DNA from: a virus | Virus record (IMG/VR): IMGVR_UViG_3300025151_000172 | Location: 1 to 31,855 of that record | Reading direction: 5' to 3' (one strand) | DNA length: 31,855 nt | Shown here: one piece after another, positions 9,589 to 28,097 of the stretch | How the letters are laid out: each line of letters begins with the position of its first letter | Position numbering within the stretch: position 1 is the stretch's first letter | Made by a program: the position numbers and the translations under genes | Notes under the pieces: model-generated | What the model was told of the DNA's origin: nothing | What the model saw: only the letters and a program-made list of their open reading frames with translations | Databases searched by the model: none

Positions 9589-12500
9589 TGAGTAATCCAA
9601 TTATTGGACTTGAGAGCATGCCTAATGTTTACTTCTCAACTGTTAACATCGAGGAGGATATGCTAGAGGCTACACTGACAATGAAAGATTTTGTCAGCAA
9701 TCCTACATGGTCCATGTCTGATATCTTACGAGATCAATTAAAAATAAAAATACTTGTAATATCATTCAACGACGGTGATAGTGCTCAGCAAACTGTGCAG
9801 CAACTCAATGAGGGAACATTGTCTATTCACGATGTACCTGATTTTCCAGTGAGGATCACTTCTGCACAAGAATATATACCCTCTCAAACAATCCAGACTG
9901 ACGATATAAACAACTTTTACTACAAATTTAAAATTACTCAAGCAGATATAGATTTATCTAAGTCAAATGTTTTTATCTTTGGCATAGCCTATGTGGACCT
10001 AAATCTGCTAAACCTTGACTATGCTAGCTACAAATATCTAGATGGACCAATGGTTTCTGAAATAGCAAGAGAAAACAATAAAACCCCAGCAAGAGGAACC
10101 TTGTTTAGGCTTGATGACGGATCCATATATGCAGGACCTGTCCACGAGCATAAGGGTAAATATATGGAGGGGTCGTTTCATGTTACAGCACCTCATGAAA
10201 ATTTGACACCTGAACTCATAGAGTCAAAAGTATCAGATTTTATGTTTGACACGGGAAAAGAGTTTGTTAGGTCTCCCCAAACAGCACCATTGTTTCAAGA
10301 GTTCTTTCACTATGAGCAAGAGTTAGATACTTCTTTAGTTGTTGTGGATAGTGTTAACCTTGCTCTAAACGAGTTTCATACGGCCAGAGAGCTTTTCAAT
10401 ACAAATCAAGAATACTTTTACAAACTTATGAAGGACTTTTATATCCCCAGATTTGAAATGAGAAAAGCACCACTAAAAAGAAGATTAGAGTTTTTAGATA
10501 TTGGTACTAGTGATTGGGTATATGATGATGACCTAGAGTCTGTGCTCATCAAAACTGCTATGGTTGATGGTGCTTTTGAAGAAAGATTTGAGATGAGATT
10601 CTTCTCTCGACAATTTAATGTGAATCCAAACAACTTAGTTGAAGCCACCGATAATTCATTTGATATAAATACACAATCCACATTCGATGCATCAGAGAAA
10701 GTTGGTTACATAAAACAATTAACATCAAACGAAGAATTTTTGTATAATTTGTTGGTTGTGGATGAAGAGTATTACGGTGACGATGCTGAAGATTATAAGC
10801 TCAGATTAGAATTGGATGTTATAGATTCTTTTAAAGTTGAACTTGAGAACACAAAAGTTGAAATGTTGTCAATTATCTCAGATCTTCAAATCACCTATAA
10901 TTCCCTATTTGGTAAACTCGATAAACAAAGAATCATAAGCTTTTTTGCATCAAATGGTATTGTTATAGGTAATAATTTAGAATTTATTAATATTGAAAGC
11001 CAATCTCTATTTGGACAGAGCATATTTTCTAGGCTATCTTCTGCCTTGCGAAATATATTACTCGCTATGATCAGTAATGATGAAGTAATAGAGGGAGTGA
11101 TAACAAGCACTGTTAAAAATCTTTATATAAATTCAAGCTCTAAAGAAAATTATAATACTGTCATTTCATTTTTAAATAATTTAGTAAATGATTTTACAAA
11201 AAAATATAGACTTACACAAAATGCTAACAGACCAATCTTGACAAATTCATCTATTTCAAAGGTTGAAAGAAAAATACAAAAGGTTATTGAGGTAAATCGA
11301 ACTCGCCAAGGCAACTTTAGCTTTTTCAATAAATCAGATAGCCAGAGAATTATTACTGCAAGTGACATGAAAGAGAGAGCGAATCAAGAATATAGAAAAT
11401 TCTTCGATCGCCAAATATCGGGTAAAGAGATATCAGACATATCTCCAAATATGGATTCCGATAAGGCAGCACAGATGGCTGACTTTGAGAGCACAAAATA
11501 TATTTATTTCACACCAACAAATTATAGGTACGGTGTAGAAAAATCAATTGACTTATCGGATTCAAATATTTCTATTTTTGATGAAAAGAGTCACGACATT
11601 ATATCAAAGTACATGTTCAAAAGAAGAACAGAGCCTAAAAAAACTAGAAGATCTGGTAAATCAAAATCAAGATCAAAATTGGGCACTGCACCAAAATTTG
11701 GCAAAAAAAAGTTGTTGTCAACGATAGCAGTATCTCGCCCATTTAGATTACCAGAAGAGCCACTAGATGATAAAAAATATGAAGATGTTCGTGACTACTT
11801 GGGGTCTACCAGCATTTTCTTGGGCTTAAGTTTTGACACTAGAGAGAAAGACCTGCCGCTTGATGATGCTCCTGCTAACACAATTCAAGCAGTTTTCTCG
11901 CAAGAGAACAAAATAAATGATTTCAAAAAAATATCACTAGATAATGAGGAGTCTGAGCTTCTAAAACTATCAAACAAAATTGACCTTTCAACATTACCAC
12001 TACAGTTTCGTGCTTTGGTTTTATCAAACTATGGTTTATCAAGATTTTCTTTTCCAATCGAGAAAGAGTCATTGATGCAAAATTCTAGATTCTCCAATGT
12101 TCTTGATAATGTTTTTAACAGAGTTAGGATAGCACAATATCTTGATGGTTTTGAAAAAGACGAAAGAGGTTTGAGAATAATCAACAATCCAATTTACGGG
12201 ACACTAAGTGATGAAATATTAGACTCTGGGAGAACATTGGCGATTAAGCTTACACCGTTTGAAAATGGTCAATTACAAATCCGAAGAGACGATGTGATCC
12301 CATCAACAAATTCATTCGTCTTTATAAATGGAACAGCTCCACCTGCTGATGTTGATGATGATATGGAAGTAGATGCTCAAATTTCAGACAGAGATCAAAA
12401 AGAGTTTTCTACCACAAACATAATCAAGCAAAATCAAAAAAGACAAGAATTAAATCAGTTTGTTGATCCAGTAGAGCAGGTACAACAATCTCGAACAACA

Positions 12501-12659
12501 GTTGATCCTAGAAGGTCTATAAGACCAACAAGGTCCGGAAGAGCCCCCACAGCATCGAGAGTAACCAGCGAGGATCGCCAAACAAGAACAAGCCCTTCGC
12601 TTACTAGGTCTTCTTCACCTCGTGGCTCAAGCGGTGGAAGCTCTGGAGGAGGATACTAA
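9588..12659 (+). CDS. Large putative virion protein with Arg/Ser-rich tail (1023 aa)
   Basis: Start and stop both use TAATG overlaps with neighbours, indicating translational coupling. The N-terminal 200 residues look beta-rich and include an early ATLTMKDFV segment and a GTLFRLDDGSIYAGPVHEHKG stretch. The middle (about residues 250-640) is rich in Lys, Glu and Asn and probably helical. A basic stretch of RRTEPKKTRRSGKSKSRSK lies near residue 690. The last ~60 residues are low-complexity Arg, Ser, Thr and Gly, ending in GGSSGGGY. No enzyme motif was recognised. It lies between structural genes and is probably part of the tail or baseplate. Confidence 0.7.
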   Translation: MSNPIIGLESMPNVYFSTVNIEEDMLEATLTMKDFVSNPTWSMSDILRDQLKIKILVISFNDGDSAQQTVQQLNEGTLSIHDVPDFPVRITSAQEYIPSQTIQTDDINNFYYKFKITQADIDLSKSNVFIFGIAYVDLNLLNLDYASYKYLDGPMVSEIARENNKTPARGTLFRLDDGSIYAGPVHEHKGKYMEGSFHVTAPHENLTPELIESKVSDFMFDTGKEFVRSPQTAPLFQEFFHYEQELDTSLVVVDSVNLALNEFHTARELFNTNQEYFYKLMKDFYIPRFEMRKAPLKRRLEFLDIGTSDWVYDDDLESVLIKTAMVDGAFEERFEMRFFSRQFNVNPNNLVEATDNSFDINTQSTFDASEKVGYIKQLTSNEEFLYNLLVVDEEYYGDDAEDYKLRLELDVIDSFKVELENTKVEMLSIISDLQITYNSLFGKLDKQRIISFFASNGIVIGNNLEFINIESQSLFGQSIFSRLSSALRNILLAMISNDEVIEGVITSTVKNLYINSSSKENYNTVISFLNNLVNDFTKKYRLTQNANRPILTNSSISKVERKIQKVIEVNRTRQGNFSFFNKSDSQRIITASDMKERANQEYRKFFDRQISGKEISDISPNMDSDKAAQMADFESTKYIYFTPTNYRYGVEKSIDLSDSNISIFDEKSHDIISKYMFKRRTEPKKTRRSGKSKSRSKLGTAPKFGKKKLLSTIAVSRPFRLPEEPLDDKKYEDVRDYLGSTSIFLGLSFDTREKDLPLDDAPANTIQAVFSQENKINDFKKISLDNEESELLKLSNKIDLSTLPLQFRALVLSNYGLSRFSFPIEKESLMQNSRFSNVLDNVFNRVRIAQYLDGFEKDERGLRIINNPIYGTLSDEILDSGRTLAIKLTPFENGQLQIRRDDVIPSTNSFVFINGTAPPADVDDDMEVDAQISDRDQKEFSTTNIIKQNQKRQELNQFVDPVEQVQQSRTTVDPRRSIRPTRSGRAPTASRVTSEDRQTRTSPSLTRSSSPRGSSGGSSGGGY

Positions 12660-14695
12660 TGTCTAATAGAGTTATTGATGGCTCAAGCATCTTTACCGGC
12701 GATGATTTAGGTAAGGATGGACTACGAAGAGAGATTGGTGTTTATTACGGCATCGATGAGGGTGCCGTCGTTGCTAGAATCAACACAACCAGTTCCTACT
12801 TGTTGACAGAGGGCACACCAAATATCGATAGTAGCGGATTATTACCATTCGCCACTCAAGCCATAACACTAACTACTGCATCATATGTTGATGATTACGA
12901 TCAGTGGCTTGCACAACTAGCAAATAAGTTTGTACCCGGTGCAGAGTACATAGATCATTATTTTAATGAACCAACAGATCACTCGTCAATAAGCCCAATA
13001 AATAATTATGAGTCCTTTGGATATGAGAGCCTATCAAAGGCAGTGCCTCCTCTTTCTTTATTGAACATACATGATCAAGAGGATTTTCCTGTTGATACTG
13101 GTGGACCAAATGGATCGCAGATGCAGCAGTTCTTAGATCAGTTTTCAATCAATAGAGAAGAGACAACAAAAAGACAACATCTTTTCTTTGGTAAAGAAAA
13201 AATAAAAGATATAAAATTAGAACACATTTTGCAACTTGGGCTTGAAATACCAGATCAGCCAAACAGGCCATACAACTCATATATCGAGATTAAGACACTA
13301 TCATCAGTTTTATACTCTAACAACATAGCGACGGTTCAAGAGTTGCTTTTTGATCAGACAAAAATGACAAATAAACTTTTTTCATTCTTTAAGAGAGAAG
13401 AGGGAGCCGGTTTAGATTTTTATCTTGATAATTTAAACAGCCTAACACAAGTGAATGTTAAGGGTTTTGTTGAATTTATATCAAACTACGATTTGTTAAA
13501 TCTAGCCGACGATGTGGACGAAAAATATTATAAAGATTATGATGAAGCATCTGTTTTTGAATCTTTCTTTTTGAGATTAGAAATGTTATCCAGAATCAGA
13601 GATTTTGTTTCAGAGAGGTTAAGAAAATCTTTTGATAGTGTAATAATGCAAAATGATTCATGCCCCTCCTTGATTGTTGGCTATAAGATACAAAAGTTTG
13701 TTGCTGGAGGAACACAACCAATTCAGACAACATATGTGATGACACCACGACCAAGAACTTACTATGACTCACTGTTTTCTTATGATACGAATTATAGATA
13801 TGAAGTCAAAGCGATTACTATGGTGTTGGGTAACTCCTACTCTTACACTCGCCTTAGACCAAATCCAGAGCTTGGCCAAGTGTCTATGACTTTTGTAAAT
13901 CGACCGTCATTGCAATTTTTGGAAATACCGATACTAACTCAAGACATGATAGTCACAGACATCCCTAATCCTCCACCAGAGATTTTCTTTTTCAATGAAC
14001 GAGGTAACAAAAATGAGTTGATTATAACTCTTGATCAGGCGACAATAGTTGAAAACTCTTCACCAGATAATTACCCACAGTATTTTTATGATGATTATGT
14101 TTCTCAAAGCAAAGTCTTTATACAACAGAATAGCACACAAATAGAATTTAGCACACTTTATACATCCAATATATATCAAATTTACAGGATCGATGAAGAA
14201 CCTAAAAGTATTGCTGATTTTACAAATGGCCTCATCGCCACTATTGGTCAGCCCGGTGTTGAATTGACTGACAATTTGTTTCGAGACACTATTGCTAGTC
14301 AGAAAAAATATTACTATTTAATAAGAACACTTACCAACTTTGGTATACACTCAAATCCAACAAGAGTTTATGAACTAGAGTTGATTCAAGACTCAGATGA
14401 AACATATCTTAACTACAGCGAGTTCAAATTCAAGGAACAAGAAACAACTAGCAAGCAAAAGGTGTTTAAGAAATTTTTACAGATCAAGCCAGCTCTACCC
14501 CAGCTTGCTCTAAAGAATGATCAGATCACGGACTTATCTACAGCAGATAACTATGGTGATTCAATCGTGGGAACCGATCCGGATCCAATTTGGGGTAAAA
14601 GATTTAAAATTCGCATAAAATCAAAGAAAACAGGTAAATTATTTGATTTAAATGTGACATTCAATTTAGAAGACGAAAATAACCAACCAATCTAA
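12659..14695 (+). CDS. Putative virion protein with fibronectin-III-like region (678 aa)
   Basis: The ATG overlaps the previous stop (TAATG) and has GGAGG in the preceding codons. The first ~130 residues are acidic and rich in Ser and Tyr. From about residue 430 to 590 the sequence has the look of a fibronectin type III or similar beta sandwich: PPPEIFFFNERGNKNELIITL, IYQIYRIDEEP, then KYYYLIRTLTNFGIHSNPTR ending in VYELELI. Such domains are common in phage tail and baseplate proteins and are thought to mediate adhesion. The C-terminus contains a basic KRFKIRIKSKKTGK stretch. Role inferred from context and fold resemblance. Confidence 0.7.
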   Translation: MSNRVIDGSSIFTGDDLGKDGLRREIGVYYGIDEGAVVARINTTSSYLLTEGTPNIDSSGLLPFATQAITLTTASYVDDYDQWLAQLANKFVPGAEYIDHYFNEPTDHSSISPINNYESFGYESLSKAVPPLSLLNIHDQEDFPVDTGGPNGSQMQQFLDQFSINREETTKRQHLFFGKEKIKDIKLEHILQLGLEIPDQPNRPYNSYIEIKTLSSVLYSNNIATVQELLFDQTKMTNKLFSFFKREEGAGLDFYLDNLNSLTQVNVKGFVEFISNYDLLNLADDVDEKYYKDYDEASVFESFFLRLEMLSRIRDFVSERLRKSFDSVIMQNDSCPSLIVGYKIQKFVAGGTQPIQTTYVMTPRPRTYYDSLFSYDTNYRYEVKAITMVLGNSYSYTRLRPNPELGQVSMTFVNRPSLQFLEIPILTQDMIVTDIPNPPPEIFFFNERGNKNELIITLDQATIVENSSPDNYPQYFYDDYVSQSKVFIQQNSTQIEFSTLYTSNIYQIYRIDEEPKSIADFTNGLIATIGQPGVELTDNLFRDTIASQKKYYYLIRTLTNFGIHSNPTRVYELELIQDSDETYLNYSEFKFKEQETTSKQKVFKKFLQIKPALPQLALKNDQITDLSTADNYGDSIVGTDPDPIWGKRFKIRIKSKKTGKLFDLNVTFNLEDENNQPI

Positions 14696-14719
14696 TTATT
14701 AATGTATTAGGAGAAAAAT

Positions 14720-15652
14720 ATGGGATTCCAAGACAATAGCGGCGATATTATTCTAGATGTCGTTCTGACCGATGAAGGAAGAAAGAGATTAGCAAAAGCA
14801 GACGGCAGCTTTGAAATTGTTAAGTTTGGCTGCGGAGATGACGAGATTAATTATGGCTTGTTCAATCTGAATACCGGCTCTGCTTATCAAGATTTGTCTA
14901 TTTTGCAAACACCGATACTTGAAGCATTTACTAACAATGCATCTTCAATGAAATCAATGCTTGTCTCTATTCCAAGAACAAACATTCTTTTTATGCCAAT
15001 TTTGCGATTGAATGAAAAACAAACACAAAGTGCTGTAGCAACTGCGGGTTCTTTTATTGTAGCCGTTGATGCAGACACACAAGACAATAGTGCAAAAGGC
15101 TTAACGACAAGTATTGGTTATGTTGCTGATAGTCATCAACAGGGTGTGCTCTTTGGAAACAATCCGGAGATTGAAGTCAGCAGCTTTATTAAAGTTGACT
15201 CTGGTATTGATGGAGGATCTTTGATTGAGGTTCCAGCAGACCTCGCAGAAACACAATTTATGATTCAAATGGATCACAGACTAGGATCTTTAGTTGACAC
15301 TACTGGTAAAGTCTTTTTAAGACCAGTGGCAATTGATGATGATAATGTCGCAACATATATGGTATCTCTCGCAGACAACAACGGTTTTGTGAAGCAGCCT
15401 TCACAATTAAGCTTGGATGCAAACGATAGCCCTATTAATGGACCGTTGTCCGCTACTCTTGAGTTTAAGGTCAAGTCGTCTCCTGATTTGATCAACAGTA
15501 ACTATTTGTTTGAACTTATTGGCTCAACAGCAGATATCACAAATAATGCTTCAGGCCAAAGTAGTTGTAGAATTATTGACTCATACATAAGAGTTACAGG
15601 CCGAAATATTGGTTTCTCGGTTGATATTCCAGTTAGATATGCAAAATTATAA
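14720..15652 (+). CDS. Structural protein with N-terminal LTxxGR module (310 aa)
   Basis: A clear ribosome-binding site, AGGAG, lies 6 bases before the ATG, and a 24-base gap separates it from the upstream gene. Residues 8-45 carry DIILDVVLTDEGRKRLAKADG followed by FGCGDDEINYGLF, the same opening module as the gene at 8596. The body is beta-rich and hydrophobic-polar alternating, ending in VDIPVRYAKL. There is no signal peptide or membrane helix. It begins a sub-block with two paralogous genes downstream. Probably a tail or baseplate protein; no biochemical function can be assigned. Confidence 0.72.
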   Translation: MGFQDNSGDIILDVVLTDEGRKRLAKADGSFEIVKFGCGDDEINYGLFNLNTGSAYQDLSILQTPILEAFTNNASSMKSMLVSIPRTNILFMPILRLNEKQTQSAVATAGSFIVAVDADTQDNSAKGLTTSIGYVADSHQQGVLFGNNPEIEVSSFIKVDSGIDGGSLIEVPADLAETQFMIQMDHRLGSLVDTTGKVFLRPVAIDDDNVATYMVSLADNNGFVKQPSQLSLDANDSPINGPLSATLEFKVKSSPDLINSNYLFELIGSTADITNNASGQSSCRIIDSYIRVTGRNIGFSVDIPVRYAKL

Positions 15653-15662
15653 GGTGAATTAA

Positions 15663-16766
15663 ATGGCTAGTATTTATAAAACAATTAGAAGCGAAGATAT
15701 CGCATCAACAAGAACAGTTCTTCACGAAGCAATTCCCTTGACTGGAACAATCGTATCTGGAACATACTCTGATGAAAATATTAAAAATTATGCTCATGGG
15801 ATGTTTCAATCTGTTTATGATTACCCCTACTTGAGCTCCTCAGCAAATCATATTTTTGATCTTACCCTTGGGTTTTCAACTGGGTCTGCTTCTTTATCGG
15901 GCTCCACAACTTCTCAGCAAGCGAAAAAAGGTAACATTTACAATCAAATGGCTCAAGTATTAATGGGCTATGATAAGAATGGAAAAATACAAAGATTTGA
16001 TTCTGATGGCGATTTGTTTAGTACAACAACAGACAAAATGGACAACTGCTTATTTGTTAATTTTTCTAGATTATTGGTTAAGGATGAGCTGCAAAAAGGG
16101 ACATTTGCATTGACATTGGGTGTCTCTGCATCATATGATACACCATTTGCTGGTAATCGAATAACTCTTAAAGATAACGATGCTGCTGATGACTATCGAG
16201 TAAACTCCCCAGCCGGTGAATATGCCGTTTTATATGCAGAAAATGTTGCCGGTATCGATGGATCTCCTCTATTTAATCAGACTGGTTCAAAGCAAATCAA
16301 AGCAGGGCTTCTGTTTTATCAAGCAGGTGTTGCAGTTCTTACTTCATCACTATTCATGGCCACTGATTCCGCTGCTAGTCCCGGCTTTCTCTCTGCTTCA
16401 GTTGGATGGGAATCAGATACTTTAGTGGTAACCTCATCATTTACTGGCTCTTCGATAGAAGTAAATGCTAATTCTTTGAGACGCAGGATCTACAATATTG
16501 CTTTCAACAATTCAGTTGAGCTTAATTCTACAATTTACTTCTGTCACCTTGGGGCAAATGAGTTTAATTATTCTGCTAACCCAACTTATGTCAGTGGTTC
16601 TAAAATTGTTGTCAAGGCTCAAAGTACAGATGAGCCTGTCTCATATCTTACAACAGTTGGTCTTTATTCGTCAGATAATCAACTTATGGCTACTGCCAAG
16701 TTGTCTGAACCAATCAAGAAAACACCTTCAACCTCTCTAACATTTAGGGTGCGACTAGATTACTAA
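15663..16766 (+). CDS. Structural protein, first of two tandem paralogues (367 aa)
   Basis: AAGGTG precedes the ATG at a normal distance. The C-terminal half aligns by eye with the next gene: AGLLFYQAGVAVLTSS here against VGLVFYNEGLMLLTSS there, FCHLGANEFNYSANPT against FCHARAGELNSSNNPT, and a closing AKLSEPIKKTPS...FRVRLDY against ASLAQPIKKEEN...FKIELDT. Motifs of this kind (FYxxGxxxLTSS, NPT, KLSxPIKK) are familiar from T4-like marine phages, where they are annotated only as structural or hypothetical. Ser/Thr/Ala-rich N-terminal half, no signal peptide. Likely virion subunit. Confidence 0.75.
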   Translation: MASIYKTIRSEDIASTRTVLHEAIPLTGTIVSGTYSDENIKNYAHGMFQSVYDYPYLSSSANHIFDLTLGFSTGSASLSGSTTSQQAKKGNIYNQMAQVLMGYDKNGKIQRFDSDGDLFSTTTDKMDNCLFVNFSRLLVKDELQKGTFALTLGVSASYDTPFAGNRITLKDNDAADDYRVNSPAGEYAVLYAENVAGIDGSPLFNQTGSKQIKAGLLFYQAGVAVLTSSLFMATDSAASPGFLSASVGWESDTLVVTSSFTGSSIEVNANSLRRRIYNIAFNNSVELNSTIYFCHLGANEFNYSANPTYVSGSKIVVKAQSTDEPVSYLTTVGLYSSDNQLMATAKLSEPIKKTPSTSLTFRVRLDY

Positions 16767-17932
16767 TGTCAAAGTTTAAGTTCAAAAAAGAAGACATTTA
16801 TGTCAATAGAACTAAAACTTATCCGGACTACAAGATATTCGTTAATGATGCAAATGTAACAATAAACAATATAGTTGAGACAAATGCAAATGCAGCGACA
16901 TCTCCCGGATTTGTGTCTTTGTATGAATATAATTTTGACACTCGATTTGAATACATACACCCTTTTATTATAGGTGGTGAAAACGACTATCGCCAATTAT
17001 TTAGATCACAAATACCTGAGTCATCTAGTGCGGCGGTATTTGATTCACAAAATCCTAATTGGGTTCAGTTTTCCAACTTATTACCGGCTATCGGTTCAAA
17101 CTTAACATCTTCTTATTTGGCTATGACATCCTCGTTAAAAAGGATAAATCCGCTTGAGACATCAAGAAGAAATGTTTTGATAAACATAGCCCGAAACTAT
17201 TATATCCAAAGTGCTCAATTTAAAATTACAGAATTGAATTTTGATGAGGATACTTCTTTAATCAATATACCACAGCCCTTGTTTGGCTCATCAATCAAGA
17301 AGGGGTCTGTCGAGTTAAGCTTTTATGTCACGGGTACACTTATCGCAAGATGCACCGATGAAGGACAGAATGGACAATTGGTTCAAAACGGAGACGGTAT
17401 CACAAGCACAGGTAGTGGGTCAACCGTTGGCCTCGTGTTTTACAACGAAGGTTTAATGCTGCTCACATCTTCAGCAACTCTGTACACATCCGCATCCTTA
17501 AACCGTTGGGTTGACTTTGCAACTGGACTACACGATAGCACCGCTAAAGGCTCAGGGTTAGAAGATCGATCGTTTGAAATAAAATACAAAGGGACAAACT
17601 ATGTCAACACGATGACCATGTTCTGTCATGCGAGGGCTGGAGAATTAAACAGTTCAAACAATCCTACCTCAATTGATTGGTCATCCGAAACAACTTTTGC
17701 AATATCAGACACTGGTTCTGTAAGAGGTTTTGAAGAGCGACCCAAAGATATTAAAAATGTTGTATCTTGCAGTATTGAAAATTTAAATGACGATTTTAGA
17801 AAGACGACTTACATCTCTAAGATCAACATGTATGATGATAAAGGTAACCTTATTGGAGTTGCTTCATTAGCACAGCCAATTAAGAAAGAAGAAAACGACG
17901 ATTATACATTTAAAATTGAATTAGATACTTGA
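16766..17932 (+). CDS. Structural protein, second of two tandem paralogues (388 aa)
   Basis: TAATG overlap with the preceding gene and no obvious Shine-Dalgarno sequence, so translation is probably coupled. It is a diverged copy of the upstream gene, sharing the FYNEGLMLLTSS, FCHARAGELNSSNNPT and SLAQPIKKEEN blocks at matching spacing. The last codon ACT and the stop TGA are embedded in the -35 region of a promoter driving the next gene; where the paralogue ends in RLDY, this one ends in ELDT. Last gene of the structural block. Role within the virion not known. Confidence 0.75.
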   Translation: MSKFKFKKEDIYVNRTKTYPDYKIFVNDANVTINNIVETNANAATSPGFVSLYEYNFDTRFEYIHPFIIGGENDYRQLFRSQIPESSSAAVFDSQNPNWVQFSNLLPAIGSNLTSSYLAMTSSLKRINPLETSRRNVLINIARNYYIQSAQFKITELNFDEDTSLINIPQPLFGSSIKKGSVELSFYVTGTLIARCTDEGQNGQLVQNGDGITSTGSGSTVGLVFYNEGLMLLTSSATLYTSASLNRWVDFATGLHDSTAKGSGLEDRSFEIKYKGTNYVNTMTMFCHARAGELNSSNNPTSIDWSSETTFAISDTGSVRGFEERPKDIKNVVSCSIENLNDDFRKTTYISKINMYDDKGNLIGVASLAQPIKKEENDDYTFKIELDT

Positions 17933-17957
17933 CAAACTAAAAAAAATATGTTATAAT
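17929..17957 (+). promoter_or_regulatory. Consensus sigma70-type promoter P1
   Basis: TTGACA at 17929-17934, a spacer of exactly 17 bases, and TATAAT at 17952-17957 preceded by TG at 17949-17950 (extended -10). Both hexamers match the sigma70 consensus perfectly. The stop codon of the upstream gene lies inside the -35 box. The predicted transcription start, about 17964, is only about 2 bases before the ATG of the resolvase gene, so the mRNA should be leaderless. Confidence 0.88.
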
Positions 17958-17965
17958 ATATTATT

Positions 17966-18517
17966 ATGAGTTTACAAAGAGTTATCTTGGGTATTGATAT
18001 TAGTACCTCACGGATTGGTATTGCCGCCGTCACTAAAGACGAAAAGCTTGTGTTCGCAGATACCATTACATACAAACAGAAAGACATGTCTCTTGAGAAC
18101 AAAGCCTTATTGTTTGAGAACACATTACAAAAAATCCTTACTGTGGAGAAGATGCACCCTATGGCTATCTATGTCGAGGAGCCATTCACTATGTTCTCCG
18201 GTGGAAGAACAACAGCAAACACCATGGCTAAACTCCAGAGGTTCAATGGCATGTGCTGTCTTGCTATACGAAAGGGTATTCTTAATAAGTCTGCTGAATT
18301 GATACCAGCACGAACTTGCCGCTCTCTCAATGAGATAAAGATTCCCCGAGGATCAAATACAAAAAAGATGATTATCGATTGGGTTTCTGCAAAGTATCCA
18401 AAAGACTTTAGATACGAGTTGACGAGACACGGTAATCCCAAGCCCGGTACGGATGATAAAGCAGATGCTGTTGTTGTGGCCCTTGCAGGATTAAAAAAGT
18501 TTAAAGAAAACACTTGA
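17966..18517 (+). CDS. RuvC-like Holliday junction resolvase (183 aa)
   Basis: RNase H-fold nuclease resembling RuvC, which cleaves four-way DNA junctions as a dimer. The expected acidic residues are visible: D11 in ILGIDIS, E71/E72 in IYVEEPF, and D163/D164/D167 in GTDDKADAVVVAL. The length is close to cellular RuvC (about 170 aa). The only ATG ahead of ILGID is at 17966, which is directly downstream of promoter P1 and has no Shine-Dalgarno sequence. Probably resolves branched concatemeric DNA before packaging or during recombination-dependent replication, together with the downstream SbcD-SbcC protein. Its C-terminal Thr codon and stop overlap promoter P2. T4 uses an unrelated enzyme (endonuclease VII) for this step. 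Confidence 0.85.
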   Translation: MSLQRVILGIDISTSRIGIAAVTKDEKLVFADTITYKQKDMSLENKALLFENTLQKILTVEKMHPMAIYVEEPFTMFSGGRTTANTMAKLQRFNGMCCLAIRKGILNKSAELIPARTCRSLNEIKIPRGSNTKKMIIDWVSAKYPKDFRYELTRHGNPKPGTDDKADAVVVALAGLKKFKENT

Positions 18518-18541
18518 CAAATTTTCTCATCATGTTATATT
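18514..18541 (+). promoter_or_regulatory. Sigma70-type promoter P2
   Basis: TTGACA at 18514-18519, 16-base spacer, TATATT at 18536-18541 with TG at 18533-18534. The 14 bases 18534-18547 (GTTATATTATAAAC) are identical to those in P3. The predicted start, about 18548, coincides with the GAGG ribosome-binding site of the primase gene, so the leader is only about 9 bases. Confidence 0.8.
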
Positions 18542-18556
18542 ATAAACGAGGCACAC

Positions 18557-19492
18557 ATGAACGAGAAAATTAAAATCATCAACGACATTCTTGGCTCCTA
18601 TCGTAGAGTCAAAAACGAACATCTTTATCATTGTCCATATTGCAATCATCACAAGAAAAAGATGTCTGTAAACTTTGCAAAGAATTATTTTAAATGCTGG
18701 GTTTGTGATACTCGTGGTAAGAACATCTATCGGATGGTCCGCAAGTTTGGCACTTACGATCAAAGACAAAAGTGGCTTCAACTTGATGGCCGACTTGATC
18801 TATCAGAATTTGATAAGTTCTTTGCTGAGTTAAACGATGAGGTGCCTGAACAAACCGTGTCGTTACCAGATGAATTTGTTTCTCTTTGTAACAAGAGTCT
18901 TCCCTTATCCTCTATGAAAGCATTAGAGTATCTCGTGTCTAGAGGTTTGACAATGGATGACATTCTTAAATGGAAAATCGGATACTGTACAGGAGGAAAA
19001 TATGGTGGTCGAATCATTATCCCCAGTTTTAATTGGGATGGTAGCACTAATTATTTTATCGCTCGTTCTTTTGTTAATCATGGGCGACGATATTTGAATC
19101 CGGCAGCAGGAAGAGACATAGTGTTTAATGAGCTTTATGTAGATTGGGACGAAGATGTTGTGCTTGTAGAAGGGGTTTTTGATGCGATTATCGCCGGTTC
19201 TAATTCAATCCCCATACTTGGTTCGACTTTGCGAGAAAACTCTCGTTTATTTCAACAAATTGTTTTAAATGATTCTCCTGTATATTTGGCCCTCGATAAT
19301 GATGCCGAGAAGAAAAGGAACTGGATAATCAAGTCTTTTTTGAAGTATGACATCGAGTTGTATACCATTGACACCTCGGGATGCGAAGATATTGGATCTA
19401 TGAGCAGAGACGAATTCAGGAAAAGAAAGGAAAATGCTAGATTAGCGGATCTAGACGAAATTTTAATATTTGACAAGTTGAGAGCAATATAG
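18557..19492 (+). CDS. DNA primase with CHC2-like zinc finger and Toprim domain (311 aa)
   Basis: Synthesises RNA primers for lagging-strand replication. The N-terminal zinc finger has C26-x2-C29 (HCPYCN) and C47-x2-C50 (CWVC). A Toprim core follows: VVLVEGVFDAI near residues 201-211 supplies the catalytic Glu, and LALDNDAEKKR near 246-256 the metal-binding DxD. Size and order resemble T4 gp61 (about 340 aa) and lack the helicase half of T7 gp4. GAGG at 18548-18551 precedes the ATG by five bases. Transcribed from P2. A replicative helicase partner is not in this window. Confidence 0.85.
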   Translation: MNEKIKIINDILGSYRRVKNEHLYHCPYCNHHKKKMSVNFAKNYFKCWVCDTRGKNIYRMVRKFGTYDQRQKWLQLDGRLDLSEFDKFFAELNDEVPEQTVSLPDEFVSLCNKSLPLSSMKALEYLVSRGLTMDDILKWKIGYCTGGKYGGRIIIPSFNWDGSTNYFIARSFVNHGRRYLNPAAGRDIVFNELYVDWDEDVVLVEGVFDAIIAGSNSIPILGSTLRENSRLFQQIVLNDSPVYLALDNDAEKKRNWIIKSFLKYDIELYTIDTSGCEDIGSMSRDEFRKRKENARLADLDEILIFDKLRAI

Positions 19493-19494
19493 GT

Positions 19495-19689
19495 ATGGAA
19501 ATCGGAGATTTAGTTCAACTCAATGGGGCAATGCGAAAACAAACATTATCGTATTATATATTAGACCATTATTCCCCTAACGACATTGGAATCGTTTTAA
19601 ATGTAAAACAATTTTTAGTTGATGTTTATTGGATTAAAAACAAAAAGGTTGCACCGATATCAAGACCGCTTCTCATAAAAATTACTTGA
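19495..19689 (+). CDS. Small SH3-barrel-like hypothetical protein (64 aa)
   Basis: Begins 2 bases after the primase stop, with no promoter of its own, so it is probably co-transcribed with the primase. The pattern IGDLVQLNG, DIGIVLNV, FLVDVYWI resembles small SH3-like/KOW-like beta-barrel proteins common in phage genomes. It has no cysteines and no membrane segment. Its last codon ACT and stop TGA are part of promoter P3. Function not known. Confidence 0.65.
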   Translation: MEIGDLVQLNGAMRKQTLSYYILDHYSPNDIGIVLNVKQFLVDVYWIKNKKVAPISRPLLIKIT

Positions 19690-19714
19690 CAAATTATAGC
19701 TAACAGGTTATATT
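19686..19714 (+). promoter_or_regulatory. Sigma70-type promoter P3
   Basis: TTGACA at 19686-19691, 17-base spacer, TATATT at 19709-19714, then ATAAAC. Bases 19707-19720 are identical to 18534-18547 in P2. The predicted start is about 19721, giving a 22-base leader containing AGGAG at 19730-19734. It drives the two lipoprotein genes. Confidence 0.8.
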
Positions 19715-19742
19715 ATAAACACTCAAAATAGGAGACTAACGA

Positions 19743-19886
19743 ATGAGTATTTTACTTTATAGCATGCTGTTTGCATGCTCCGGCGACAAAGCCGATGATA
19801 CAGCCGTTGCTGAAGAACCAGCATCAGAACCAGCAGCAGAGATTGCTGATTCAGGCGAAGACACAGCAGAAGATTCAGGAGAATAA
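19743..19886 (+). CDS. Tiny acidic lipoprotein (47 aa)
   Basis: A short reading frame with a strong Shine-Dalgarno (AGGAG, 8 bases before the ATG) and promoter P3 immediately upstream. The protein opens MSILLYSMLFAC: a short uncharged hydrophobic segment ending in a lipobox (LFA before Cys12). After the Cys come SGDK and then about 30 residues made almost only of Asp, Glu, Ala, Pro, Ser, Thr and Gly. The mature product would be a lipid-anchored acidic peptide of about 36 residues. The signal lacks the usual N-terminal Lys/Arg. Role not known; envelope exclusion of competing phages is one possibility. Confidence 0.75.
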   Translation: MSILLYSMLFACSGDKADDTAVAEEPASEPAAEIADSGEDTAEDSGE

Positions 19887-19888
19887 TT

Positions 19889-20125
19889 ATGATCATGCTA
19901 TTATCACTACTCGTTGCTTGCGGTGGAAATACCTCAGACAATACGGAAGAGCTTGTTACCACTGAAGCAACGGTAACTGAAGAAGGTCTTGAAGTTATTG
20001 AAACTACCACAAATGAAAATGGTACGACGACAACGACGACTACCAATGATGGTTCAACAACTGAGACTACTAGTTCAGAAGTTGAAACCACAGAAAATAC
20101 AGAAACTACGAACGAAAACGAGTAG
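19889..20125 (+). CDS. Small Thr/Glu-rich lipoprotein (78 aa)
   Basis: Starts 2 bases after the previous lipoprotein gene; AGGAG at 19877-19881 lies inside that gene and favours the first ATG over the one at 19895. The protein begins MIMLLSLLVAC, with a textbook lipobox (LVA before Cys11), followed by GGN. The remaining ~65 residues are dominated by Thr and Glu, including a run of seven Thr, and contain no further Cys and almost no basic residues. Like its neighbour it lacks a positively charged signal-peptide N-terminus. Likely an envelope lipoprotein exposed to the periplasm or cell surface. Function unknown. Confidence 0.75.
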   Translation: MIMLLSLLVACGGNTSDNTEELVTTEATVTEEGLEVIETTTNENGTTTTTTTNDGSTTETTSSEVETTENTETTNENE

Positions 20126-20137
20126 TTTACAGGGTTT

Positions 20138-20165
20138 GCGGCTCCCTCCAAAAGCCGCTTCTTTT
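20138..20165 (+). terminator. Intrinsic terminator or attenuator between lipoproteins and thioredoxin
   Basis: GCGGCT at 20138-20143 pairs perfectly with AGCCGC at 20153-20158, with a 9-base loop, followed directly by TTCTTTT. This is a compact rho-independent terminator shape for the P3 transcript. No promoter is visible between it and the thioredoxin gene, so thioredoxin would depend on read-through. Confidence 0.6.
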
Positions 20166-20172
20166 ATGGAGG
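20145..20172 (+). promoter_or_regulatory. Alternative hairpin masking the thioredoxin ribosome-binding site
   Basis: CCTCCAAAAG at 20145-20154 can pair with CTTTT at 20161-20165 and GGAGG at 20168-20172: ten base pairs with a 2-base bulge and a 6-base loop. GGAGG is the Shine-Dalgarno of the thioredoxin gene. This fold uses bases of the terminator's 3' arm and loop, so the two structures exclude each other. Confidence 0.45.
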
Positions 20173-20177
20173 AAAAA

Positions 20178-20495
20178 ATGAAAGAAATAGCAGATGGAAA
20201 TTTTACTGAGTCTATCAAAGATGGGATAACCCTTGTAGACTTTTATGCAAATTGGTGTATGCCATGTCTTCGTATGCAATCTCAAGTTGAGAGCTTTCAA
20301 GAAGCAAATCCAAATGTCAATGTTTTTAAATATGATGTTGATAAGGGTGTAAATATTTGGTCTAATGTTAAAGAACAATTTCAAATTCGCTCAATACCTT
20401 TTGTGGTCATTTATAAAAATGGCGAGGTAGCAACTAGTGCAATCGGATACAAGACAGCAGACCAATTACAAGAAATACTTGACAACATACAATAA
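20178..20495 (+). CDS. Thioredoxin (105 aa)
   Basis: A small thiol-disulfide oxidoreductase with the thioredoxin fold: TLVDFYANWCMPC places the redox pair at C27 and C30, and RSIPFVVIYKNGEV carries the cis-Pro (P74) and the following strand. The active site reads WCMPC rather than the usual WCGPC. Normal length, no signal peptide, so cytoplasmic. The ATG at 20178 is chosen because GGAGG lies 5 bases before it; an in-frame ATG at 20166 overlaps that site. Possible roles are reducing phage ribonucleotide reductase or acting as a processivity factor; neither partner is in the window. The -35 box of promoter P4 lies inside its last codons. Confidence 0.88.
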   Translation: MKEIADGNFTESIKDGITLVDFYANWCMPCLRMQSQVESFQEANPNVNVFKYDVDKGVNIWSNVKEQFQIRSIPFVVIYKNGEVATSAIGYKTADQLQEILDNIQ

Positions 20496-20507
20496 ATGTG
20501 ATACACT
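20479..20507 (+). promoter_or_regulatory. Sigma70-type promoter P4
   Basis: TTGACA at 20479-20484, 17-base spacer, TACACT at 20502-20507 with TG at 20499-20500, then ATAAAC as in P2 and P3. The predicted start, about 20514, is the first base of a perfect AGGAGG ribosome-binding site, so the leader is about 10 bases. Confidence 0.75.
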
Positions 20508-20523
20508 ATAAACAGGAGGTCGC

Positions 20524-23500
20524 ATGCTTATAGCACACATTTCAGACACACACATTAGAAACCTGAAGTATCATTATGAATACAGACAGGCTTTCGCAGA
20601 CTTATACGACAAACTCCGTGATCAAAATCCAGACATTATTGTTCACACGGGTGACATCGCACATACAAAAACACAATTATCCCCAGAATACTTCGAATTA
20701 ACTTCGGAGTTTCTTGCCTCTTTGGCTAATATAGCACCGCTCTATGTTATTCTTGGAAACCATGATGGTAACCTAAAGAACTTTGAGCGACAAGATGCTA
20801 TAACTCCAATTGTTGAAGCACTGGATAATGACAATATACATCTACTCAAAGAATCAGGCGAGACCTTATTAGATAATGATATTGTCTTAAATGTCTTATC
20901 AGTTTTTGATCGAGATAACTGGGTAAAGCCAACTGATCATTCAAAGATAAATATCGCTCTTTATCATGGTTCAATATCTGGTTGTGAGACAGGACAGGGA
21001 TTCACTATCACACACGGTGAAGATGAAGCATCTATCTTTTCTGATTTTGACTTCGCCATGCTAGGCGATATTCACAAGCGACAACAAATGGATAGCGAGG
21101 GCCGTGTATGGTATGCAGGGTCAACAATCCAGCAGAACTTTGGTGAAAGTCCTCGCAAAGGTTATTTGCTTTGGAATATAAAATCTAAAGACGATTGGGA
21201 TATAGAGTTCCATGCTCTACATAATCCTCGTCCGTTCATGACAATTCGTCTTGACCAAGATGGAAACCTACCAGAAACACATGTTCCAAGAGATTCTTAT
21301 CTGAGAGTCGTCTCAGGATATAATCTGCCTTTGACAAAACTTAGACAAGCAGTTTCTGAAGCAGAAGCTAAGTGGCGACCGTATTCAATCACATATGTCA
21401 ACAAGGGCACCGGAGGGTCATCTCAAAACCAAGGCATGCTTGCTGATGGTAGATTTGAGAATCTTCGAGACACCCGTGTTCAAAAGGAAATGATTGAAGA
21501 ATATTTAATCGATAAAGAACTTGATGAGGGTGTTCTTGAAAAAGTTCTTGAGCACAATCGTCATTACAACAGAATCGCAGAGGAACAAGAAGAAGTCTCT
21601 CGTAATGTTATCTGGTCCGTAAAGGAGATGCAGTGGGACAATCTGTTCAATTACGGAGAGAAGAATAAATTAAACCTAGATAACCTCAATGGTATTGTGG
21701 GTATCTTTGGAAAGAACTACTCAGGCAAGTCTTCTATTGTTGACTCTGCTTTGTATTCTATATTCAATACGACATCTAAAGGTGAACGAAAAAATGTTCA
21801 CATTATAAACCAAAATAAGGATAAAGCCCGAGGACGGATAGATATCCAAGTCGGTGATAACCTGTATAGAATCACTCGTAATTTAGCAAAATATGAGAAG
21901 AAACTGCGAGGTAAAACCACTGTTGAGGCTAAAGTAGAACTTGATTTTGCAGTCTACAATGGAAAGGACTGGGAGTCTCTGAACGGGACATCTCGTAATC
22001 AAACAGATGCAAATATACGAAGACACTTTGGAACAATTGATGATTTTCTTTTGACCTCGATGGCTTCTCAGATGGACTCTCTATCTTTTGTAAAAGAGGG
22101 ATCAACTAAGCGAAAAGAGATTTTAGCAAAGTTTCTTGACCTCGATTTGTTTGATGCAAAGTTTAAGATCGCCAAGAAAGATTTAGCAGAAAAAAAATCT
22201 GTTATCAAACACCTCCGTTCAATGAACTGGGATCTTGAGATTAATAAAAAGCAAGATGTTCTTGACGATATTGAAATTGACATCCGAGAAAAGACTCAAA
22301 GATGTAATGAGATTGAAGTTGAACTCAAAGGTTTCGTTGCTCAACTCGAAGAGATCAATGAAGCAATTGATTCAATTCCAGCAGAGATTATTAACATATC
22401 CGACATTAACAAACGGATTCAACAAAAGGAAAATCACACCACATCACTGCTTACAAAAAATGCATCGTTGACATCGAAAATATCCAACAATAAGCAAACT
22501 TTACAAGAGGTAATCACCTTCGTCGATACATTTGACCTAAATGTGTTGCTGGAGGAAAAAGAAAGGCATTCTGAATTGCTTGGCTCTAAATTTTCAAATT
22601 CTTCGGACATTCGTGAAGCAGAGACCGAAAAGAAAAGATTACAGAAGAAAATCAAGATGCTGGACAACCATGAGTATGATCCTGATTGTAAATTCTGTAC
22701 AAATAATAAATTTGTTAAAGATGCAAAGAAAGCAGAAGCCGGATTGAAAGATCTCAAGGGGCGGATGTCTAATCTTAAAATGCATGCTGAGAATATTGAA
22801 AGCAAACTGTCAGACTTAAACATTGAGGACATTGAAGAAAAGATTGCTTCTTATTATGAGGTTGTGTCTCGTCGTGATTCTTTACAAACAGAGATTGAGC
22901 GAGATGAGTTGCAAATAGAAAGCAACAATAAACAAATTCAAATCAATAACACCACTCTTGACGGCTTAGTTGCCTCTCGTGATTTATATGAAGAGAACCG
23001 AGAAGCGATTGAAAACAAAGAAGCATTCCTTGCTAAGCGAGACGAATATTCTAGAGCAAGAGCGAGGCTTGTTGGTGAGCAAAAAGATTGTGAAGAACAA
23101 CTTCAAGAATTCTATATTGAAAAGGGATCCACCCAACAAGCGATCACTTCATATCGAGAACGGAAAGAAGAACTTGCTTCAAAAGAAAAGGAGTTTATTG
23201 CTCTTGATCTTTTCCTTCAGTGTATGCATCCTAATGGTATTGCTTACAACGTAATTCGCCAAATGCTTCCCATAATTAACGAGGAAATAGCCAAAGTTTT
23301 AACTTCTATTGTTGACTTTGAGGTGTTCTTCGTAGACAATGGTAAGTCATTAGATATCATGCTCAAACACCCAAAATATGATGCTCGTCCTTTATCTATG
23401 GGATCAGGTGCGGAGAAGACACTATCTGCTATGGCCATACGCTTATCTTTGATTTCAATAACCAATTTGCCGAAAAGTGAACTATTTATACTAGACGAAC

Positions 23501-23673
23501 CAGCCACTGCTTTGGATCAAGAACATATGGATGGATTTGTCAAGATGCTTGAGATGATTAAGTCTCAATTTAAAACCGTCTTGCTTATCTCTCATCTTGA
23601 TAGTCTTAAAGACTGTGTTGATCTTACGATCGATATTCAAAAGAAAAATGGCTATGCGAGGGTAAATTTATGA
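20524..23673 (+). CDS. Fused SbcD-SbcC (Mre11-Rad50) nuclease/ATPase (1049 aa)
   Basis: One chain contains both subunits of the Mre11-Rad50 DNA end-processing complex (T4 gp47 and gp46). The N-terminal metallophosphoesterase has D8 and H10 (SDTH), D44 (TGD), N79-H80-D81 (GNHD), YHGS near 148 and GDIH near 180. After a linker comes the ATPase: Walker A GIFGKNYSGKSS near 393-404, long coiled coil, a zinc hook DCKFC near 720-723, second coiled coil, ABC signature SMGSGAEKTLS near 958, Walker B LFILDEPATALD near 987-998 and the H-loop LLISHLD near 1020. All key residues for both activities appear intact. It probably resects DNA ends for recombination-dependent replication. AGGAGG lies 4 bases before the ATG, directly downstream of P4. 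Confidence 0.92.
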   Translation: MLIAHISDTHIRNLKYHYEYRQAFADLYDKLRDQNPDIIVHTGDIAHTKTQLSPEYFELTSEFLASLANIAPLYVILGNHDGNLKNFERQDAITPIVEALDNDNIHLLKESGETLLDNDIVLNVLSVFDRDNWVKPTDHSKINIALYHGSISGCETGQGFTITHGEDEASIFSDFDFAMLGDIHKRQQMDSEGRVWYAGSTIQQNFGESPRKGYLLWNIKSKDDWDIEFHALHNPRPFMTIRLDQDGNLPETHVPRDSYLRVVSGYNLPLTKLRQAVSEAEAKWRPYSITYVNKGTGGSSQNQGMLADGRFENLRDTRVQKEMIEEYLIDKELDEGVLEKVLEHNRHYNRIAEEQEEVSRNVIWSVKEMQWDNLFNYGEKNKLNLDNLNGIVGIFGKNYSGKSSIVDSALYSIFNTTSKGERKNVHIINQNKDKARGRIDIQVGDNLYRITRNLAKYEKKLRGKTTVEAKVELDFAVYNGKDWESLNGTSRNQTDANIRRHFGTIDDFLLTSMASQMDSLSFVKEGSTKRKEILAKFLDLDLFDAKFKIAKKDLAEKKSVIKHLRSMNWDLEINKKQDVLDDIEIDIREKTQRCNEIEVELKGFVAQLEEINEAIDSIPAEIINISDINKRIQQKENHTTSLLTKNASLTSKISNNKQTLQEVITFVDTFDLNVLLEEKERHSELLGSKFSNSSDIREAETEKKRLQKKIKMLDNHEYDPDCKFCTNNKFVKDAKKAEAGLKDLKGRMSNLKMHAENIESKLSDLNIEDIEEKIASYYEVVSRRDSLQTEIERDELQIESNNKQIQINNTTLDGLVASRDLYEENREAIENKEAFLAKRDEYSRARARLVGEQKDCEEQLQEFYIEKGSTQQAITSYRERKEELASKEKEFIALDLFLQCMHPNGIAYNVIRQMLPIINEEIAKVLTSIVDFEVFFVDNGKSLDIMLKHPKYDARPLSMGSGAEKTLSAMAIRLSLISITNLPKSELFILDEPATALDQEHMDGFVKMLEMIKSQFKTVLLISHLDSLKDCVDLTIDIQKKNGYARVNL

Positions 23674-25977: not shown

Positions 25978-26511
25978 ATGGCAACAACATTAGAAATTAT
26001 TCAGGGCTTAGCCCAAGCCGCTTCTAGAGCATATGATGGTGCTCATATGGAAAATTATAACGACGATGGTCGTGCTCGTACTGCCAAGTTGCAACGAGAA
26101 GAGGGTGATCCAATTTTAGACCGTCGAGTTATGGACGGATTCAAAGTTAGATTTTCAGGCCCTAATCTTATAATTTCATATCAATCTGAGATCAAGCTCA
26201 AAGAAGTTTATGCTGGTGGTTTTGAAAATGAAATTAACAGAAGAATCAATGAAATAAAAAAGTTTCTTCAAAAAGAGTATAAGGCAATCACTGGTGAGTC
26301 TGTGTCACTCACGAAACAAGGCGAATCAGATATTCTCGTTCAGTCTACCTCTCGCATACACTCTTGGGTCCAAGCACAATGCACTTACAAGATTGGTAAA
26401 GTGAATGCAGATGGCATACTTCAGCCGTCAGAGCCAACTGTCCGAGAGATTACAAAAAAGTTTCTTGAGAAAGCATCTACAAAGCGACCACGTAACGATA
26501 CAAGGAAATAA
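25978..26511 (+). CDS. Conserved hypothetical protein upstream of terminase (177 aa)
   Basis: Begins 3 bases after the previous stop and overlaps the terminase start as TAATG. The sequence has an N-terminal helix TLEIIQGLAQAASRAYDGA, the block REEGDPILDRRVMDGFKVRF, beta-like GPNLIISYQSEIKLKEVY, an amphipathic helix INEIKKFLQKEYKAITG, and a basic tail ending KRPRNDTRK. A compact protein immediately upstream of the large terminase sits where a small terminase often does, but there is no visible helix-turn-helix, so I do not assign it. Confidence 0.7.
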   Translation: MATTLEIIQGLAQAASRAYDGAHMENYNDDGRARTAKLQREEGDPILDRRVMDGFKVRFSGPNLIISYQSEIKLKEVYAGGFENEINRRINEIKKFLQKEYKAITGESVSLTKQGESDILVQSTSRIHSWVQAQCTYKIGKVNADGILQPSEPTVREITKKFLEKASTKRPRNDTRK

Positions 26512-28094
26512 TGGGGCTTGAGTTATCAAAGAAAGAAATCGTAAAAGAAATTGTAAAATCGGGTAAGGATCCGATTTACTTTATTAACACTTATTGCCGC
26601 ATTTCGCATCCTCAAAAGGGTCTTATAAAATTTGATACTTTCCCATACCAAGACGATCTTCTTCAAGATTTTAATGATTTCCGTTTCACGGTTATCTTAA
26701 AAGCCAGACAGTTAGGCATCTCAACGATTACTGCCGCCTATATTGTCTGGCTTATCTTATTTCATCGTGATAAGAATGTGATGGTGCTTGCAACAAAGTT
26801 TGCAACGGCTGCGAATCTTGTGAAGAAAGTAAAGGCAATCATGAAGAACCTGCCTGATTGGATTCGTATAACAGATATCGCAATTGATAATAGAACTTCA
26901 TTTGAACTGTCCAATGGTTCTCAAATCAAAGCATCATCTACTTCTGGAGATGCAGGTCGTTCAGAGGCTCTTTCGCTTCTCGTAATTGATGAGGCTGCTT
27001 TTGTTGATGGCCTAGATGAACTATGGACTGCTCTTTATCCTACACTTTCAACAGGTGGTCGATGTATCGCTCTTAGTACACCCAATGGTGTTGGTAATTG
27101 GTTTCACAAAACTTATGTAGATGCTGTGGATAGCCAGAATGACTTCAAGGCAGTTAATCTCCCATGGGATGTTCATCCCGAAAGAGATATGGCATGGTTT
27201 AGAAACGAAACAAAAAACATGTCAAAGCGACAAATCGCCCAAGAGCTTGAGTGCAACTTTAACTCCTCTGGTGAAACCGTTTTACAATCAGAGGACATGG
27301 AATGGGCGAACTCCTGTGTCTGCGACCCTATTTACAAGACAGGGTTCGATCGTAACTTCTGGATCTGGGAGAAATACCAAGATGATTCTAAATATCTGCT
27401 TGTTGCTGACGTTGCTCGTGGTGATGGAGCAGATTATTCTGTTTTTCATGTCATTAAACTGGAAACGATGGAAGTCGTCGCAGAATACCAAGGAAAACCA
27501 ACGCTAGATCATTATGCCGATATTTTGTTTGATGCTGGTCGAGAATATGGAAATTGTCTTTTAGTTGTAGAAAATAATGGCATTGGTATTTCTGTTCTTG
27601 AAAAACTTATCAATAAAAGTTATCCAAACTTATACTATTCCATTAAAGGCACACACGAATATATTGAGCAACACAAAGCCGAATATGCTTCTAATTCTGT
27701 TCCGGGATTTACCAACTCATCGAAAACAAGACCTCTTATTGTGGCTAAAATGGAAGAGTACATAAGAAACAGACTAATTACTGTTAGATCTTCTCGACTT
27801 TTTCATGAATTTAAGACTTTTATCTGGCATAATGGGAGACCACAAGCAATGCGTTCGTACCATGACGATTTGGTTATGTCTTTGTCAATTGCTTGTTGGG
27901 TGAGAGATACAGCGATAGAGGTAGATCAAAGAGATGTTGCCTATAAAAAGGCAATGATGGATGGTATGTTTCTGAACAGCACAAGAATGAATACAACCAT
28001 TAAAGGACAAGATGGGTATTCTGAAACATTTAATGAGAAATATCGTGATCAAATCAAACAAAAGAAAGATTTTCTTTGGATTTATAAAGGATAA
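26511..28094 (+). CDS. Large terminase subunit, T4 gp17-like (527 aa)
   Basis: The DNA packaging motor: an ATPase that translocates DNA into the prohead and a nuclease that cuts concatemers. ATPase motifs: a deviant Walker A, LKARQLGIST, near residues 63-72; Walker B LLVIDEAAF near 155-163; the coupling motif ALSTPNG near 187-193. The RNase H-like nuclease has D in LLVADVARGDGADYS near 296-310, E in LLVVENNGIG near 350 and the closing acidic pair in YHDDLVMSLS near 450. Domain order and length are close to T4 gp17 (610 aa). AAGGA precedes the ATG. The portal follows after 3 bases. Confidence 0.93.
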   Translation: MGLELSKKEIVKEIVKSGKDPIYFINTYCRISHPQKGLIKFDTFPYQDDLLQDFNDFRFTVILKARQLGISTITAAYIVWLILFHRDKNVMVLATKFATAANLVKKVKAIMKNLPDWIRITDIAIDNRTSFELSNGSQIKASSTSGDAGRSEALSLLVIDEAAFVDGLDELWTALYPTLSTGGRCIALSTPNGVGNWFHKTYVDAVDSQNDFKAVNLPWDVHPERDMAWFRNETKNMSKRQIAQELECNFNSSGETVLQSEDMEWANSCVCDPIYKTGFDRNFWIWEKYQDDSKYLLVADVARGDGADYSVFHVIKLETMEVVAEYQGKPTLDHYADILFDAGREYGNCLLVVENNGIGISVLEKLINKSYPNLYYSIKGTHEYIEQHKAEYASNSVPGFTNSSKTRPLIVAKMEEYIRNRLITVRSSRLFHEFKTFIWHNGRPQAMRSYHDDLVMSLSIACWVRDTAIEVDQRDVAYKKAMMDGMFLNSTRMNTTIKGQDGYSETFNEKYRDQIKQKKDFLWIYKG

Positions 28095-28097
28095 ATT

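Follow-up and report, generated by a model that had tools for sequence, protein, structure and literature searches.

The virus record IMGVR_UViG_3300025151_000172 of IMG/VR (31,855 bases, analyzed over its whole length and referred to here as the window) carries four promoters, P1 to P4, that are very probably genuine host sigma70-type promoters and belong to the early/middle regulon of T4-like phages from an uncultured clade. The window covers part of the genome of one such phage; its assignment to the T4-like phages is based on a gp20-type portal and a T4-type terminase. The window is 98% coding, and P1 to P4 lie in an island of DNA-metabolism genes that encodes a RuvC-like resolvase, a DnaG-type primase, two small lipoproteins, a thioredoxin, and SbcCD and is located between two virion-gene blocks. 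Among annotated phages, the terminase is closest to those of Flavobacterium phage immuto (48%) and Microcystis phage Mel-JY01 (46%), and a primase scan of viral contigs returned 45 relatives with a top identity of 88%.

All four promoters are on the plus strand and have a TTGACA-like -35 element, a spacer of 16 to 17 bp, and a TATAAT-like -10 element. P1 (17929 to 17957), which would drive the RuvC-like gene, consists of TTGACA at 17929 to 17934, a 17-bp spacer, and the extended -10 element TGTTATAAT at 17949 to 17957, with transcription expected to start at 17964 to 17966. P2 (18514 to 18547) has TTGACA at 18514, a 16-bp spacer, TGTTATATT at 18533 to 18541, and the discriminator ATAAAC at 18542 to 18547, placing the predicted +1 at ∼18548. 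P3 (19686 to 19720) has TTGACA at 19686, a 17-bp spacer, TATATT at 19709 to 19714, and ATAAAC at 19715 to 19720 (predicted +1 at ∼19721), while P4 (20479 to 20513) has TTGACA at 20479, a 17-bp spacer, TGATACACT at 20499 to 20507, and ATAAAC at 20508 to 20513 (predicted +1 at ∼20514). Matches to the sigma70 elements across the four promoters are 12/12, 11/12, 11/12, and 10/12. An earlier note on this DNA had described four copies of ACTTGACAA at 17927, 18512, 19684, and 20477, each with a -10 box after 16 to 17 bases. These positions were verified, as were the ATAAAC that follows the -10 box in P2, P3, and P4 and the stretch GTTATATTATAAAC common to P2 and P3. The TG extension that the note had seen in three of the four is present at -15/-14 in P1, P2, and P4, which are thus extended -10 promoters, and is absent from P3.

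P1 to P4 occupy four of the five longest intergenic gaps in the window (28 to 53 bp), and the fifth contains a terminator-like hairpin. In P1 (17932), P2 (18517), and P3 (19689), the preceding open reading frame (ORF) terminates on the TGA within TTGACA. On the downstream side, a Shine-Dalgarno sequence begins at the predicted +1 of both P2 (GAGG) and P4 (AGGAGG), giving predicted leaders of 9 to 10 nt.

Chance expectation was estimated from 300 dinucleotide shuffles of the window. TTGACAA combined with TGnTAnnnT was observed 3 times versus 0.06 expected, ACTTGACAA with a correctly spaced TAnnnT 4 times versus 0.06, and ACTTGACAA with both TAnnnT and ATAAAC 3 times versus 0.003; none of the 300 shuffles scored as high on any of these. 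ACTTGACAA alone gave a weaker signal (4 versus 0.6, reached in 1 of 300 shuffles). Generic TTGACA/TATAAT scans of the window showed no clear excess over shuffled sequence (49 versus 48.8 and 59 versus 48.7, with a standard deviation of 7), nor did a generic terminator scan. Because the generic scans stay at the shuffle level, counting consensus matches is by itself no evidence, and the strength of the case lies in the combination of elements and their placement. The statement that no such promoters occur elsewhere in the window thus holds for the full motif but not for generic matches, since other 11/12 matches are found at 7866, 10719, and 16110, all within ORFs and without TG or ATAAAC. The final codons of the gene upstream, together with its stop, are often encoded by ACTTGACAA; the TGA serves as the stop in P1 to P3 and, in the 11 genomes surveyed below, closes an open frame of 60 codons or more in 22 of 105 promoters, compared to 31 of 527 for all coding-strand TTGACA. 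This could point to chance matches in AT-rich DNA or to a side effect of codon usage where genes end. However, a gene end cannot supply a -10 element, a 17-bp spacer, or conservation when the upstream gene changes, and the counts, which shuffles do not reproduce, refute this explanation, to which we give almost no credence.

The motif is a recurrent feature of related phages. The search of 26 related records with TTGACA-N12-15-TGnTAnnnT, using reversed patterns as controls, yielded up to 42 sites per record and control counts near zero. The earlier note had named a lack of enrichment upstream of other early genes as grounds for rejecting its proposal, and in these relatives the enrichment was found. 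The exact string of the note, searched as ACTTGACAA-N13-15-TATATTATAAAC, gave 10 sites on 9 viral contigs, all 10 of them 12 to 47 nt upstream of a Shine-Dalgarno sequence and start codon. A closer survey covered 11 genomes or genome fragments, the window among them (1.07 Mb; 95 to 98% coding), and returned 127 sites versus 2 to 8 in shuffles, with 17 bp as the dominant spacer. The coding strand carried 119 of the 127, and 105 were outside ORF interiors, mostly 10 to 60 nt upstream of a Shine-Dalgarno-led start (88/105). Virion blocks, which were mapped by homology and make up 49% of the DNA, contained only 5 of the 101 sites that were both on the coding strand and not ORF internal, with 96 outside (P = 1e−22). 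The ruvC promoter accounts for four of the five; its -35 element overlaps the final virion gene in the block.

Individual promoters are conserved as well. P1 is kept upstream of ruvC in relatives, P3 is kept as RGTTATATTRTAWACACTCAAAAA in loci L003 to L006, and the island retains its position between virion blocks. The primase gene is directly preceded by a promoter in 24 of 28 loci (primase identity of at least 61%), and the DNA farther upstream is often unrelated among those loci; no promoter was found before the primase in more distant primase relatives. The suggestion that this module is transcribed on its own, early, and by host polymerase fits the enrichment and placement of the motif in relatives. 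Island placement and exclusion from virion blocks give comparative support for separate transcription, while its early timing is something we infer, from gene content and promoter type. Repeated, intergenic, conserved sequences could also be operators or recombination or packaging sites, and in some relatives a copy at ruvC faces the other way (G018:135891 and G017:37738). Such a role is nonetheless very unlikely, as conservation is found mainly at the positions contacted by sigma70, with most of the spacer free to vary, the orientation matches that of the gene, and a Shine-Dalgarno sequence lies just downstream.

The fine structure of the promoters was examined in 95 non-redundant sites after setting aside positions fixed by the search pattern. 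Conserved positions were the C before TTGACAA, A at -19, C/T at -17, A/G at -16, A at -9, A at -6, and a purine at +1. The +1 purine was found in 79 of 95 sites, in agreement with a start ∼7 nt after the -10 element. Two subclasses were distinguished: class A (TGTTATATT and variants, n = 77) and class B (TGATACA[CTA]T, n = 18), the latter including P4. The C(-1)/A(+1) preference is significant only in class B, where C(-1) occurs in 13 of 18 sites (P = 3e−5) within a common start region, ATAAAC|ATCAAC. Class B sites are clustered, at 14 to 31 kb in G018 and 4 to 7 kb in G003. These properties of class B would suit promoters of a phage-modified polymerase, that is, a middle class with a phage activator acting on ATAAAC or the spacer. 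We consider this improbable because a full consensus -35 element and an extended -10 element require no activator, and because class A does not keep C(-1) (10/77, P = 0.58). In T4 middle promoters, by comparison, a MotA box replaces the -35 element (PMC1524935). No TTGCTT-like box near -30 in place of a -35 element was found here; instead, the consensus -35 is present, -21/-20 are free, and no box is conserved.

For sigma70-type promoters such as P2 to P4, ATAAAC is the discriminator (-6 to -1), predicted to give a pyrimidine(-1)/purine(+1) start. It was previously proposed to be an additional box, either bound by a phage factor or setting start site choice. The first idea was not sustained, as the hexamer is simply the region between the -10 element and +1, is variable in most class A promoters, and needs no separate phage-factor site, although a phage factor may have an effect. 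The second fits the discriminator position.

Compared to known promoter classes, the family shows no essential difference from bacterial sigma70 extended -10 promoters, with which it shares TTGACA, a 17-bp spacer, a TGnTATAAT-type -10 element, and a purine at +1; here, C is more common than T at -17, and the -35 element is often also a stop codon. Like the early promoters of T4, RB69, RB49, 44RR, and Aeh1 (PMC1524935), these promoters number in the tens per genome, precede early genes and novel ORFs, and have a host-sigma70-type -10 element. Their near exclusion from virion blocks parallels the T4 early pattern of many copies before early genes and none in late blocks, with "early" here taken from gene content. 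The early promoters of RB69, RB49, and 44RR also favor C at -3 to -1 (PMC1524935). In contrast to T4 early promoters, the -35 element is TTGACA(A) rather than GTTTAC-like (-36 to -31; PMC1524935), and the TGn extension is usually present; the phages themselves are distant relatives.

We propose that P1 to P4 would open the DNA-metabolism island to the main RNA polymerase of the host, that ATAAAC would place the start right at the Shine-Dalgarno sequence, and that P1 would start transcription on the resolvase AUG. The RuvC-like ATG (17966) is 8 nt past the P1 -10 box and lacks a Shine-Dalgarno sequence, with an in-frame stop just upstream at 17954. A start codon farther downstream would cost the RuvC-like catalytic site its N-terminal G-I/L-D motif. 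A -10-to-ATG distance of 5 to 8 nt without a Shine-Dalgarno sequence was found in 14 loci, some of them nearly identical pairs (the window, L003 to L008, L010 to L013, L022, L043, and L047), and the spacing is similar in the distant loci L038 and L040. In another branch (L017, L018, L025, and L027), the -10 element is at 17 to 19 nt and a Shine-Dalgarno sequence is present. From this geometry, transcription from P1 is predicted to begin at the AUG itself, which would make the resolvase message probably leaderless. The lambda cI message transcribed from PRM is an example of a leaderless phage mRNA. Leaderless genes also exist in hosts (PMC10986495). The predicted resolvase message resembles both in the -10 element 5 to 8 nt before the AUG and the lack of a Shine-Dalgarno sequence, and differs in that it encodes a conserved resolvase of T4-like, presumably virulent phages. 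Separately, three relatives (G018:135891 and 135974, G017:37738, and G009:61226) carry antisense copies of the motif, either at the 5′ end of ruvC or within that end of the gene.

An unbiased count of the 8-mers that lie upstream of 1018 genes recovered both the sigma70 elements and a second motif, ACTATTTA (83 versus 4.1 expected). In the 11 genomes, ACTATTTA was strongly strand biased (142 coding versus 7 opposite) and mostly located 10 to 40 nt upstream of a Shine-Dalgarno-led start, without a -35 element. It is not confined to virion blocks (76 inside and 66 outside). The window has six copies of this candidate late-promoter core, at 30005 to 30012 on the plus strand and at 4332, 14313, 23481, 24722, and 31698; all are inside ORFs, so the motif is weak within the window alone. 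A gp55-like late sigma is encoded in G018 (G018:169533-170225, L056:9533-10225, minus strand; phrog_234, E = 8e−6), with homologues in six other relatives but not in this window. It was found through PHROGs, as phmmer searches with T4 gp55, gp45, gp43, and others matched only a gp41-like helicase. The T4 late box TATAAATA was rejected as a candidate since it was not enriched (26 coding versus 65 opposite strand), and no paper pairing "late promoter" with ACTATTTA turned up in the literature collection searched.

ACTATTTA and the gp55-like sigma would together form a probable late transcription system, called late because of the T4-late-like form of the box and the sigma, not because of placement. 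T4 late promoters use TATAAATA, and Aeh1 uses CTAAATA with a diverged gp55 (PMC1524935). ACTATTTA is likewise one short box without a -35 element in phages with a gp55-like sigma in the genome; it replaces the T4 box (-13 to -6) and is nearest to that of Aeh1. Virion genes would probably be served later by the gp55-like sigma reading this single 8-bp box.

Several points weigh against reading P1 to P4 as host sigma70-type promoters of an early/middle regulon. P3 has GG, not TG, before TATATT. The exclusion of ORF-internal sites relied on our own simple gene caller. The annotated relatives Mel-JY01, immuto, and LR756508 have 0, 1, and 0 sites, respectively, which indicates that the promoter family is clade specific. 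The 5′ end of a phage transfer-messenger RNA (tmRNA; see below) was not matched exactly by any of the bacterial genomes searched for a host. Host assignment through portal relatives in metagenome-assembled genomes was rejected, as these were Acidiferrobacteraceae and Flavobacteriaceae contigs (59 to 60%) of conflicting phyla, which are possibly mis-binned. Finally, we infer the polymerase and leaderless translation as well as timing and start sites, and the latter two belong among these points.

The remaining features described for the window are all on the plus strand. The upstream virion block (g1 to g8, 3 to 17932) and the downstream head block, which includes the terminase large subunit and T4-type portal gp20 (26511 to 30080; Portal_T4, E = 2.7e−76; Terminase_6N), contain no family promoter. 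The portal and terminase were recognized by Pfam, and the putative tail/baseplate-type genes of g1 to g8 were assigned by position and synteny. The RuvC-like Holliday-junction resolvase (17966 to 18517, 183 aa; phrog_159, E = 1.7e−11) is followed by the DnaG-type primase (18557 to 19492, 311 aa; phrog_47, E = 1.8e−39; Pfam Zn_ribbon_DnaG) and a small conserved ORF that adjoins its 3′ end (19495 to 19689, 64 aa; 70% identity in G001). Under P3 are two tiny genes (19743 to 20125) whose products have lipobox-type starts and are D/T/E rich, with conservation limited to the nearest relatives. From their sequence, these are lipoprotein-like proteins: lip1 (19743 to 19886, 47 aa, start MSILLYSMLFAC) is kept in L003 to L006, and lip2 (19889 to 20125, 78 aa) is T/E rich. 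An intrinsic-terminator-like hairpin (20138 to 20165; GCGGCT and AGCCGC separated by 9 nt, then TTCTTTT) closes the P3 unit and is found upstream of trx in L003 and L004 as well; the stability of this region is not out of the ordinary (z = −0.16). The thioredoxin gene (20178 to 20495, 105 aa; Pfam Thioredoxin, E = 3.3e−18) lacks a family promoter of its own, and P4 is followed by a fused SbcD-SbcC (gp47-gp46-like) nuclease (20524 to 23673, 1049 aa; phrog_77, E = 1.1e−49; Pfam Metallophos).

Family promoters in relatives were also associated with other elements. One 5-kb region (L088:1-5000, G011:54-4876) has eight of them, six being a TTGACAG...TGTTACATT variant, and is probably an early small-gene cluster. 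The phage tmRNA (L080:5061-5434, G015:105061-105434; Rfam RF00023, 90 bits; tag ANNNLFFDEVALAA) lies behind a family promoter. In G018, two family promoters (L051, minus strand, ∼13600 to 13520 and ∼12500 to 12430) lead straight into 3′ pieces of tRNAs, comprising the T arm and acceptor without D and anticodon arms, with a run of T at the end; intact tRNA-Arg, tRNA-Met, and HNH genes lie nearby. This promoter-tRNA "minihelix" was rejected as a conserved feature, as a search of viral contigs matched only G018.

The promoter family is known as a kind; the novelty lies in the phages themselves, in the precise consensus, in the likely late box, and in the predicted leaderless message for the resolvase. 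We tentatively suggest that these phages could follow a two-code program, with two subclasses of sigma70 extended -10 promoters early and a gp55-like sigma with ACTATTTA late, together with a conserved leaderless early resolvase mRNA, a combination that is possible but that we do not hold to be the likelier outcome. If it is true, late read-through ruvC transcripts, lacking a Shine-Dalgarno sequence, would be poorly translated, producing a timing switch at the level of translation. The conserved, predicted leaderless resolvase message offers a testable case of leaderless translation for an enzyme of the phage lytic cycle. For this uncultured T4-like clade, the promoters provide a usable early signature, along with a probable late one, by which gene timing may be read from metagenomic fragments.

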